A stretch of DNA of 64,000 bases from Glandiceps talaboti (Eukaryota > Hemichordata > Enteropneusta > Spengelidae): the NCBI RefSeq assembly GCF_964340395.1, contig NC_135566.1:8822001-8886000 (forward strand). Direction: 5' to 3'. Below the pieces are notes generated by a model, which ran no database searches, had not been told where the DNA came from, and saw only the letters and a list, made by a program, of their open reading frames with translations. Every line of letters starts with the position of its first letter. Within the stretch, counting starts at the first letter, position 1. Below are positions 1-43,990 of the stretch, in pieces. A program made the position numbers and the translations under genes.

Positions 1-3000
1 TATTCAAACATCTACCAGAGTTTGTTATTTACCAGGAAATCATAGAAACTGGAAAGCTCTACATGAGAGGTAGTAAAGTATGCATGTAACATTCATTTTG
101 TTGTCTTGTTAGATTTGTGTACAGAGTGTTGGATATCATTTGATGTTGAATTACTTTCTTATGGTACTACATTACTTATATTTAAAAAATCTTGATTATC
201 ATATATTATTTCTTTAAATATTGAAAAAAAATATATGCTGGTTTACTTCTATACACCACTAGAATATATCAGGGCTTTAGCATGCAGGGCTGGTAAGCAA
301 GGACCGACAGGGTTGCAACGGGGCTATTACAGCAATGATGAATATCTGTGAAAGAAAGTGAATCCAGCAGGGCTGCCCTGAATGCAATTTATAGTTTCTA
401 ATACAACATATATATGCATTTGTTGCCATTTTTGTGTGTGCTTGAACATAGAGGGCGCTGTCACAATTTTCTCGTAACCTTTGTCTGCATGGCGTATCTT
501 TTATACACAGGTTTGACAGCCATTGAAGCTGATTGGTTACCAAGGTTACTACCCCACATGTGTACATTGTCCAGACCCCTTGATGACCCATCGCCAAGTT
601 ACCACGACAACACAGGGACAGTACGTGGTCATATGACAAGTACATTTGGTAAGTTTAGCTGTAAGAATATACAAGTTTAAAATAAATGGAGATTTGTACG
701 TTCAAATAATGTGCACACCTCACAAATCAAAGCTCCAACTCATTCTCAGTTAAAATCAAGAAAAAAATATCAGGTCATCGTACAAATTTGAAAAGAGGTC
801 AAAATGTTATCAAAATGAAATCATTTAGAATCCAATATGACTGCTGAATATCCATGAGACATGAACAATTTGATGATTTCCAAGAAAACAAGCTCAAGAA
901 ACCCTTAATTACTTTTATTATTTCTAAAAGGACATGAACAAACTTTCATATGGCAAAGTTTGGAGAAATTTGAAGAACTTTGATTTTCAAGGAAATTAGT
1001 CTTCAAGGCACATCCTTACATGGAGGATATTGTAACAAATGATTTGTTTTGTTGGTAGAAGTACCATCTATTACTAATCTTGAATACTGACTTTTTTTGT
1101 TTTGTTTTCAGGACGTAATTCCTGGCAAGTACCTGCCGTAGAACTAGAGTTTCCAACTGGACTAGAAAAATACAACTATTTTGCTAAGTATCTTTTGGAA
1201 GGAAAGGTACGTGAACATTCCTACACAGTGCTGGTACACAGACATCCGGATAAGAACTAGAACTAATACTAGTAGAAATACTTTCAGAATAACAAATAGT
1301 GGATATTAGGAACTCAAATCTAGTTGACCTTTGACTTTTAACCTCTAACATCTAAAAATCCATCATTCAGTCCTATATTCACCCTCGAGTAATGAAGGAT
1401 GTAACCCCATTGCTGATTGGTTAGTGAGCTCAGAATAAAAATAGCATGGGCAAAAAAAGTGTGTGTAGTAATACAAGTTCTATTGTTGTTCTACAGGTCA
1501 TACCATCACTTGGACAGTTTGTTCCATATCTACTATCAACACCAAGTACTATGATTAAAACATGGGCCAAGTAAGTATACATTTGTACTATGATCAAAAC
1601 ATGGGCCAAGTAAGTATACATTTGTACTATGATTAAAACATGGGCCAAGTAAGTATACATTTGTACTATGATTAAAACATGGGCCAAGTAAGTATACATT
1701 TGTACTATGATTAAAACATGGGCCAAGTAAGTATACATTTGTACTATGATTAAAACATGGGCCAAGTAAGTATACATTTGTACTATGATTAAAACATGGG
1801 CCAAGTAAGTATACATTTGTACTATGATCAAAACATGGGCCAAGTAAGTATACATTTGTACTATGATCAAAACATGGGCCAAGTAAGTATACATTTGTAC
1901 TATGATTAAAACATGGGCCAAGTAAGTATACATTTGTACTATGATTAAAACATGGGCCAAGTAAGTATACATTTGTACTATGATCAAAACATGGGCCAAG
2001 TAAGTATACATTTGTACTATGATTAAAACATGGGCCAAGTAAGTATACATTTGTACTATGATCAAAACATGGGCCAAGTAAGTATACATTTGTACTATGA
2101 TTAAAACATGGGCCAAGTAAGTATACATTTGTACTATGATCAAAACATGGGCCAAGTAAGTATACATTTGTACTATGATTAAAACATGGGCCAAGTAAGT
2201 ATACATTTCTGTTGAATCAGCTTTTGGATAAAAAAAATTCATTCACAGAAGCTCATCAGACCTGGCAATATAACTACATCAGGGATTGAAGGCCATGTCC
2301 TAAATAAACCATCATAGAATATACAAATATAATGAACAAATAAAAGTTATGGCATCTTCCACCTTTCAGCCACATAATACCTTACAACAGATATAAGCTG
2401 TTTTTCAGATGTGATCCACTGTACAACAGCTATTAACTTCGTAATTCAGTATAGAAGTGACACCCATCCAATCAAGACCTGTTCAGATATTTGTTTGTCT
2501 CGATACTCCCGCATACAAGAAATTATCTATAATGTTCCTGTAAGAGGTCATTTGTATTTGTTTTCACTTTCTTTCAGACTTCAGCCAAGAACTCAAGTGT
2601 TATTGCAGACGCTGGTCAGTGAGCAGGTAGATTCTCGGGACAAGTTACTCAAAGTTTGGCAAAACAATGACAAGTGTAAGTATGGACATTCTACTAAGCA
2701 AGTACTACATGACAGAAACCACTGATGACATGATGTACAAAACATGTTACATCTACACACTTTCAACAAAAGCTGTGTGTTTTATGTACCCAGTAGTATT
2801 ACAGTAGTGGATGTAGTGTGTGTGTGTGTGTACAGAACATGTTATTTGGTGGTTAACTGTAGTTCATCATTCTGATGGTGATTATCAACCAGGACAACTC
2901 AAAAGCTCAATGCTATTTCCTAAACTGAACTGTATGTTGATCTAGCAAGCTGATGAACATGCGTTTCTTTCTACAGATTTACTCTCAGCATATTTTGAGT

Positions 3001-3074
3001 GGTTACCCAAGGAGAAGCATTCAGATATCATTATCATATGGCCACCAGCAAGGAGGAAGACTGAGGACAAATGA
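1..3074 (+). CDS. DHX37: DHX37-family DEAH-box RNA helicase, C-terminal exons (5' truncated by window edge)
   Basis: These are the last six coding exons of a DEAH-box helicase of the DHX37 (yeast Dhr1) family. That family acts in the nucleolus on U3 snoRNA and 18S rRNA maturation. Exons are 1-69, 511-648, 1112-1206, 1497-1570, 2578-2675 and 2977-3074, all with GT-AG junctions and compatible phases, giving about 190 residues. The first exon reads FKHLPEFVIYQEI, the usual start of the post-OB-fold region. Later blocks LEKYNYFAKYLLEGK, MIKTWAKLQPRTQ and YLLSAYFEWLPKEKHSDI match the family's C-terminal domain in order, and the protein ends a few residues after a WPP motif, as in vertebrate DHX37. 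The helicase core is upstream of the window. The donor of the 1497-1570 exon lies inside a 39-bp tandem array (see that entry). The gene is convergent with INTS2. Family assignment is from remembered similarity. Confidence 0.88.
449..458 (+). promoter_or_regulatory. CTCF-like core motif in a DHX37 intron
   Basis: TAGAGGGCGC fits the core consensus YAGRKGGCRC of bilaterian CTCF sites. It lies in the intron before the 511-648 exon. A single motif match is weak evidence of binding. Confidence 0.25.
734..1035 (+). repeat. Dispersed repeat family A, copy 1
   Basis: About 300 bases in a DHX37 intron match 31740-32050 over most of their length. Shared words include a CAAATATG/CCAATATG-GCTGCTGAATA block, TTTTTATTATTTC, AAAGGACCATGAACA-like text and GATTTTCA-GAAATTGGTC. 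A shorter inverted copy lies at 12750-12845. No open frame or terminal inverted repeat is visible. It is probably an old non-autonomous transposon. Confidence 0.6.
1546..2208 (+). repeat. 39-bp x 17 minisatellite that copies a DHX37 exon end and its 5' splice site
   Basis: Seventeen head-to-tail 39-bp units fill 1546-2208. The first unit is half exon: its first 25 bases are the last 25 coding bases of the DHX37 exon ending at 1570, followed by the intron donor GTAAGTAT. Every other unit repeats this junction, so the sequence GGGCCAA then GTAAGTAT occurs 17 times at exact 39-bp spacing, from 1570 to 2194. Units are identical except for one T/C site in the Ile codon (ATT or ATC). Units 2, 8, 9, 12, 14 and 16 carry C. 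Reading on past the first donor meets TAA at 1572-1574, and each unit repeats that stop. Confidence 0.97.
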
Positions 3075-4231: not shown

Positions 4232-19203
<14,972 letters not shown>

Positions 19204-43387: not shown

Positions 43388-43990
43388 CAACCGATAACGC
43401 AGTAAACAACCGATAACATCTTAGTCCTTCCTTCTTTTAAATGTTGAGTCTTATCATACATGTGTATTTTATCACTGTAATTGGTGTTCTGTCATGTTTA
43501 GTGTAATACATTTTTTTGTACCATTGTTGCCATGGCATTTTAAATATCCCCATGGGGACCACATTGGAAATAAGTGTTAAAAAATACTTTTATGTGTTAT
43601 CCTCGGTGATTTTTATTCCTTGTGTTTTAATGACTGTGTACTTGTATAAATTTTTACCGAATAAATTCAATTCAATCCAACCGATAACGCAGTAATCAAC
43701 CGATGACGTAGTAACCAGCTGATAGCGTAGTAAACAACCGATAACGTAGATATATTAAAGGTACTCTAAGCTACGACGTGCCGTGCCGCCCTATCAGCCT
43801 GCACTCACTAAGACCATTGAATGCTGAACGACCCGACGTATCTTATGGTATACCGGTAATATTATCGGTAGGTTTTTACGACATTATCAGTTAGTAAATG
43901 TTATCATGTTATTAGTTACATTATTGGTAAACTTTTACTACATTATTGGGTTGATACATTATCGGTTTGGTTACTACGTTATCAGTTGTA
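43388..43990. repeat. Fold-back array of CCGATAACGTAGTAAACAA-type units
   Basis: Direct copies of a 19-20-bp unit (CCGATAACGCAGTAAACAA and variants) lie at 43389-43417 and 43679-43750. Inverted relatives (TTACTACGTTATCGGTT-type) lie at 43860-43990. The central spacer (43760-43850) is unique. The layout resembles a fold-back element whose arms are built of tandem subrepeats. Confidence 0.65.
43418..43678 (+). mobile_element. LINE 3' tail inserted in the fold-back array
   Basis: It ends in GAATAAATTCAATTCAATCC, a short-tandem 3' end typical of CR1/L2-like LINEs, and contains CCCCATGGGGACCACATTGG. It is flanked by AACCGATAAC at 43408-43417 and 43679-43688. These could be a 10-bp target-site duplication, although the surrounding array itself is repetitive. 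There is no reverse-transcriptase sequence. Confidence 0.5.

Follow-up and report, generated by a model that had tools for sequence, protein, structure and literature searches.

Seventeen tandem copies of an exon/intron boundary in DHX37 of a probable hemichordate, a minisatellite probably tolerated through exon definition

Description

An intron of DHX37 opens with a tandem array in which the end of the preceding exon and its 5' splice site are repeated 17 times, and this array is probably a junction-spanning minisatellite of the 'mirage' kind, near neutral and tolerated via exon definition. It lies near the start of the window, by which we mean the whole 64,000-nucleotide stretch of DNA analysed here, and is accompanied by similar arrays in the same gene and in its neighbor, INTS2 (Table 1).

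Table 1. Features of DHX37 and INTS2 and the tandem arrays at their exon boundaries (window positions, unless an L009 position is given)
Feature	Position	Strand	Evidence
DHX37 coding exon	511..648	+	frame, splice signals, mouse/human DHX37 match
DHX37 coding exon	1112..1206	+	frame, DHX37 match
DHX37 coding exon, last 25 bases being array copy 1; predicted productive donor after 1570	1497..1570	+	frame, DHX37 match
Tandem array, 17.0 x 39 bp, unit GTACTATGATYAAAACATGGGCCAAGTAAGTATACATTT	1546..2208	+	TRF, copy-by-copy comparison
Intron opening with the array; 16 predicted decoy donors after 1609, 1648, ... 2194	1571..2577	+	copy comparison, frame
DHX37 coding exon	2578..2675	+	frame, DHX37 match
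Last DHX37 coding exon, stop TGA	2977..3074	+	frame, DHX37 match
DHX37 acceptor array, 61 bp x2.3	L009 1109-1246, upstream of window		TRF, sequence
DHX37 donor array, 94 bp x4.3	L009 2890-3295, upstream of window		TRF, sequence
DHX37 donor array, 60 bp x2.2 (100% matches) plus a degenerate end copy	L009 3836-3967, upstream of window		
DHX37 acceptor array, 74 bp x4.5	L009 4434-4762, upstream of window		
INTS2 acceptor-side array, 57 bp x3.1, intron end and exon start	7705..7879	-	TRF, sequence, frames

Results

TRF reports the array with a period of 39, 17.0 copies and 98% matches without indels. Each unit consists of 25 bp of exon end and 14 bp of intron start with the donor GTAAGTAT, and copy-by-copy comparison finds the donor context CAA/GTAAGTAT in all 17 copies. 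The exon at 1497-1570 ends with the first 25 bases of copy 1 (1546-1570), the intron starts at 1571, and the donors are located after 1570, 1609, 1648 and so on to 2194. Variation is confined to unit position 11, which is T in 11/17 copies and C in 6/17 (copies 2, 8, 9, 12, 14 and 16), the other 38 positions being the same throughout; the two forms, ATT and ATC, both encode Ile and are synonymous in the exon copy. The T/C order along the 17 copies is TCTTTTTCCTTCTCTCT, and its alternating stretch at the array end looks like growth by two-unit steps. The first-pass annotation of this DNA had described a 39-bp unit made of a DHX37 exon end and its donor and repeated 17 times, a single synonymous T/C difference and this series of donor positions, and TRF and the copy comparison bear out all of these. 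Homogeneity within the array, in one assembly, is suggestive of copy-number instability. The unit has a single matching place in the 590-Mb assembly in a search that scores the best candidates only. On the minus strand, a 270-aa open frame in which MYTYLAHVLIIVQ is repeated (window 1430-2242) and a second frame of 226 aa run over the array; such a long open frame arises because 39 bp is 13 codons, and gene finders could call both.

Joined through donor 1, the five window exons form an uninterrupted open frame for a 166-aa C-terminal part that matches mouse DHX37 (structure 6o16, E 5e-54), human DHX37 (7mqa, E 2e-49) and Pfam DHX37_C (E 2e-35), and aligns with residues 815-972 of the 975 in the mouse chain. 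Translation of 30 kb upstream of the window gave much of the remaining gene, and pieces hand-picked from its open frames match residues 68-314 and 400-813 of the mouse chain. A search of the 590-Mb assembly (E up to 1, best candidates scored) detected the DHX37 C-terminal part in these five exons alone. The exon at 1497-1570 is flanked by introns of 290 nt upstream and 1007 nt downstream (383 nt from donor 17), and the DHX37 intron median in the draft gene model is 434 nt.

Each of the 17 donors was joined to the next exon. Donor 1 alone keeps the frame and predicts the full-length C-terminal protein; donors 2-17 (16/16) would bring a TAA at once, right after ...KTWAK, and the resulting stops would lie 133-718 nt upstream of the last exon junction. 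By the usual rule a stop so placed makes a transcript an NMD target, and transcripts from donors 2-17 would be expected NMD targets. The earlier statement that a TAA follows the junction, so that any donor beyond the first gives a premature stop, thus holds for all 16, with NMD-type placement, and the same TAA rules out, in the predicted frames, a longer protein variant via downstream donors. The donors had also been called 17 equally strong sites: they are equal, but they are not strong, since position -1 is A, not G, and the duplex of CAA/GTAAGTAT with U1 (-7.5 kcal/mol) ranks 12 of the 20 donors scored in the draft model.

In silico folding gives the array RNA a mean donor unpaired probability of about 0.2 with 17 copies versus 0.56 with one copy, and 4/200 shuffled-unit arrays had donors as little exposed in an eight-copy model. 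Donor 17, which is without a next copy, is the most exposed (0.26), and donor 1 is predicted to be hidden as much as the decoys. Such pairing could damp the decoys without favoring donor 1, and we give it little weight. A hairpin favoring donor 1 was considered and rejected, as the predicted copy-boundary hairpin covers donors 1-16 and is lost at donor 17, which would, if anything, leave the wrong donor exposed.

The earlier picture of one odd intron was not borne out. DHX37 holds four further boundary arrays, two at donors and two at acceptors, and a sixth, at an acceptor, lies in INTS2, the adjoining gene on the opposite strand, identified by a match to structure 7cun and by Pfam INTS2. TRF match rates across the six arrays run from 75% to 100%, a spread as expected of births and decay, and the 94-bp donor array retains GTAAGT in 4/5 copies, counted by eye. 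In INTS2 the predicted productive acceptor AG ends at 7726; decoy acceptors ending at 7783 and 7840 are in frame and open and would add 19 or 38 aa; a further decoy, more diverged, ends at 7933 in a frame that meets a stop. Three of the six units (39, 57 and 60 bp) have lengths divisible by three, and three (61, 74 and 94 bp) do not. Use of a decoy in the 57- or 60-bp array would add 19 or 20 residues in an open frame, and the 39-bp unit contains a stop. In the draft model, the 60-bp donor array has an 832-nt intron upstream and a 249-nt intron downstream. In 6/6 arrays, the conserved protein depends on whichever copy adjoins the exon body, meaning the first donor or the last acceptor.

Two repeats were left out of the boundary arrays, one of 69 bp (L009 6995) and one of 116 bp (L009 7108). 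The former, x1.9 at L009 6995-7123 (window about -3005 to -2877), runs from position +2 of another DHX37 donor and so abuts the exon without taking in any of its sequence. A 41-bp minisatellite x11.4 (L010 9164-9622) occupies much of a DHX37 intron and stops just before the acceptor, and a 35-bp repeat x2.9 with AG/GTGAGT on the minus strand lies upstream of DHX37 (L010 2582-2684). Elsewhere in the window, at 43389-43749, the 19-bp motif CAACCGATAACGTAGTAAA forms a short array and recurs close by.

This genome is rich in tandem repeats: a 284-kb sample (the window, three flanking pieces and 19 pieces at one fixed position on 19 contigs) holds 67 arrays of period 20-300, overlaps merged. GTRAGT is present in the unit, on either strand, in 5/22 arrays of the DHX37/INTS2 region versus 2/45 in the 19 other pieces, although two of those five carry it on the strand opposite DHX37 and are not demonstrable boundary arrays. 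Boundary crossing was counted against the 50 boundaries of a 26-exon draft DHX37 model, from which an unsupported 26-bp exon (-7760) was left out. Within the DHX37 span, 5/10 minisatellites cross a boundary versus 2.0 expected under random unit placement (P 0.03), and without the index array 4/9 do so versus 1.9 expected (P 0.09); the crossings thus exceed chance by little and may reflect a weak attraction. These counts do not support the idea that splice junctions strongly attract tandem repeats; boundary arrays recur in DHX37 and INTS2, and a strong boundary preference cannot be claimed.

At 17 matched exons of three CCT genes, three of several in the family-search list, no minisatellite was found at an exon edge as placed by profile matches, and because these genes are without boundary arrays DHX37 is not typical. 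A 278-bp (TACA)n microsatellite (L037 6844-7121) starts at or within a few bases of a CCT exon donor. Genome-wide, three AGGTAAGT at 33-63 bp spacing gave 3000 matches versus 1004 for the reversed motif, counts inflated by copies of a few large arrays; distinct arrays on contig C1 to 16.7 Mb number 7 versus 4, and single-site density is about equal (10 and 13, respectively, in 190 kb). An excess of donor arrays across the genome is therefore suggestive only, and at least one of the seven C1 arrays, the one at 5.05 Mb with a 27-bp unit, looks like satellite. That array (C1:5046389-5049298, ~2.9 kb) has AGGTAAGT in many units and is probably not genic. Three other C1 arrays with AG/GTAAGT, at 1321974-1322268, 1679140-1679638 and 2934484-2934841 (41, 47 and 50 bp), have units that on visual inspection could be coding as far as the donor, and are candidate boundary arrays.

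Mitochondrial contig C40 (51 kb) is, by cox1 spacing, a tandem of a 15,435-bp genome and probably an assembly concatemer. Its genes were named from recognized motifs, and cox1 from family search, giving the order nad2-N-W-A-Y-cox1-S-cox2-(K)-atp6-cob-cox3-nad3-R-nad4L-nad4-H-nad5. The cox1 gene has no AAA, AGA or AGG codon and has ATA at four places, three of which we take to be Ile in other animals, judged by the bovine sequence. Three other mitochondrial genes have AAA 2, ATA 29, AGA 0 and AGG 2 times in 1046 codons, and the tRNA-Lys loop reads CTCTTAA. ATA is reported to encode Ile in echinoderms and hemichordates and Met in chordates, Balanoglossus coding genes to have an AT content of 50-52%, and the CU-CUU-AA tRNA-Lys loop to occur in echinoderms, Balanoglossus and Rhabdopleura but not Saccoglossus (PMC3121625); echinoderm gene orders are described as very different (PMC2697986). 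The mitochondrial code, tRNA-Lys loop and gene order would thus fit an enteropneust hemichordate, and amphioxus, a host that the mirage literature had brought to mind, was rejected on these grounds. The position of cob between atp6 and cox3 (L034 about 1095-2240) differs from the published Balanoglossus order, and the few AAA and AGG codons present speak against a simple hemichordate match. The GFP family had no match in the assembly, which speaks only weakly against amphioxus, the control genomes being likewise empty.

Discussion

A 39-bp segment over the exon/intron boundary would have been duplicated, and the array would have grown through successive rounds of slippage or unequal exchange, so recently that its copies are still near-identical, and would persist as close to neutral. 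Under exon definition, the acceptor at 1496 would pair over the exon with the nearest donor, after 1570, and donors 2-17 would be removed as part of the intron. We infer the birth mechanism, the near neutrality and the actual use of donor 1, the last from the frame and from published rules. A tolerated accident was one of three options raised in the first-pass annotation and fits best.

Where donors are of equal strength and both flanking introns exceed 250 nt, the upstream donor is reported to be preferred, and five minigenes carrying a pair of identical CAG/guaagu donors between 365-nt introns used it exclusively (PMC9225289). In the same source, about 60% of all human events show a preference for the downstream donor, and in its long/short intron class equal human donors favor the downstream site. 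Compared with the DHX37 exon, those minigenes had donors of greater strength and longer introns upstream. That the first of 17 equal sites has to be chosen is right in that donor 1 alone would be productive, but given the upstream preference it is not a paradox. For acceptors, an across-exon rule is stated in PMC9225289 and the long/long class shows a reduced upstream preference only, so exon definition explains the acceptor arrays less well. The 60-bp array also runs against the rule, as it precedes a 249-nt intron and so falls in the downstream-favoring class, where its extra 20 residues would be in frame.

Use of donors 2-17 might nevertheless do harm. If the array made this haplotype partly non-functional, the animal would be carried by its other haplotype; no second DHX37 was found, any use of those donors would truncate the protein, and predicted donor exposure drops from 0.56 in the one-copy in silico allele to about 0.2. 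We think a damaging allele unlikely, however, as the DHX37 pieces at mouse 68-314, 400-813 and 815-972 are without sign of decay and the exon-definition data favor donor 1 (PMC9225289). The same 16 immediate stops, 133-718 nt before the last junction, would also suit a poison-exon switch, in which regulated use of donors 2-17 would yield stop-containing transcripts and lower DHX37 protein. This option of the first-pass annotation met with no positive evidence and is improbable: the arrays have no common design, the 60-bp unit being in frame and open and the 94- and 74-bp units out of frame, near-identical recent copies point to mutation over long-kept function, and published boundary arrays are reported without interference in regular splicing (PMC3087553, PMC3902484).

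That the copy number was inflated or collapsed in assembly is very improbable. Near-perfect repeats are a classic error site, and one amphioxus mirage was judged misassembled in a draft genome (PMC3087553), yet this 590-Mb assembly consists of 47 contigs, and among 20 with inspected lengths 19 measure 21-36 Mb, which makes long reads likely; 663 bp is short for such reads, and the irregular T/C order is unlike simple stutter. Hardest to credit is a selected U1-binding platform or splicing enhancer, serving as an exon-definition aid or as a shield against early polyadenylation. It could draw on the 17 evenly spaced U1-complementary sites and on a unit that may be non-random, the array RNA pairing its donors above most shuffled arrays (4/200 as low); but the complementarity to U1 is middling, the predicted structure hides the sites rather than exposing them, and the three acceptor arrays among the six are left unexplained. 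The U1 platform, too, had been raised before, and nothing positive was found for it.

The reading of the array as a mirage tolerated through exon definition extends to a broader claim, which we advance tentatively as quite possible: that boundary minisatellites are not confined to amphioxus and arise continually across a hemichordate genome, so that they are perhaps ancient among deuterostomes or else a side effect of repeat richness in any genome, and that they form a natural series of 2-17 identical competing sites on either side of the exon, exon definition deciding the outcome. Splice-site choice is usually studied with pairs of sites, and DHX37, with as many as 17 identical donors in an array and with acceptor arrays as well, provides a ready-made test. 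A shortest-exon rule predicts the first donor and last acceptor, a shortest-intron rule the last donor and first acceptor, and a first-transcribed rule the first donor and first acceptor. In 6/6 arrays it is the shortest-exon pattern that the conserved protein calls for; the shortest-intron choice is the opposite in all six, and the first-transcribed choice fails for the acceptor arrays. If RNA agrees, exon definition makes the genome tolerant of boundary duplications.

Comparison with known systems

The original paper on the Adh3 mirage is reportedly that of Canestro and colleagues in 2002. 'Mirages' are minisatellite-like duplications of intron-exon boundaries in amphioxus, described in globin genes, with Adh3 cited, at both 5' and 3' boundaries; their copy number varies between haplotypes, Adh3 data and globin RT-PCR suggest that regular splicing is undisturbed, and boundary duplications are proposed there as raw material for intron gain (PMC3087553). 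PGBD5 and TnC are further mirage genes, the first PGBD5 repeat abutting the splice site (PMC3902484). The DHX37 array resembles the mirages of Adh3, BflGb6/BflGb9, TnC and PGBD5, which are likewise boundary-spanning repeats on the donor or acceptor side with AG/GT in many copies and have units of comparable size, at 10-72 bp (Adh3), 60 and 108 bp (PGBD5) or about 150-160 bp (globins). Its units combine exonic and intronic sequence over one junction (25 + 14 bp), as do five similar arrays, and splice signals are kept in many copies (17/17 donors here; 4/5 GTAAGT in the 94-bp array, by eye). The host is apparently a hemichordate and not a cephalochordate, a difference of range and not of structure, five arrays lie in one gene, and 17 near-identical copies compare with 2-7 in the amphioxus mirages whose counts were compared, Adh3 excepted. 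A literature search of partial coverage found no report of boundary arrays in hemichordates.

A minisatellite with multiple splice donors in IFI6 is said to have been reported by Turri in 1995. In this human gene (6-16), each repeat unit at the exon end can act as a donor, and two downstream units are so used, giving three mRNAs and protein isoforms (PMC4526556). The DHX37 array is like it in form, but the downstream donors of IFI6 make variants and those of DHX37 would bring a stop (TAA in 16/16).

Tandem duplication of AGGT is a described route of intron gain, with dual-specific sites in UBC and VCX3A (PMC3443670, PMC10809524), and there, too, tandem duplication multiplies splice signals in a gene. 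In that route AGGT supplies the donor and acceptor of a new intron, whereas the DHX37 junction reads CAAGTA, not AGGT, and an existing intron, which ends in an acceptor of its own at 2577, is simply made longer by the copies. The array is thus a real, if extreme, case of the known boundary-minisatellite kind, and what it adds is a probable new host phylum, a size of 17 copies, five arrays clustered within a single gene and a natural test of splice choice.
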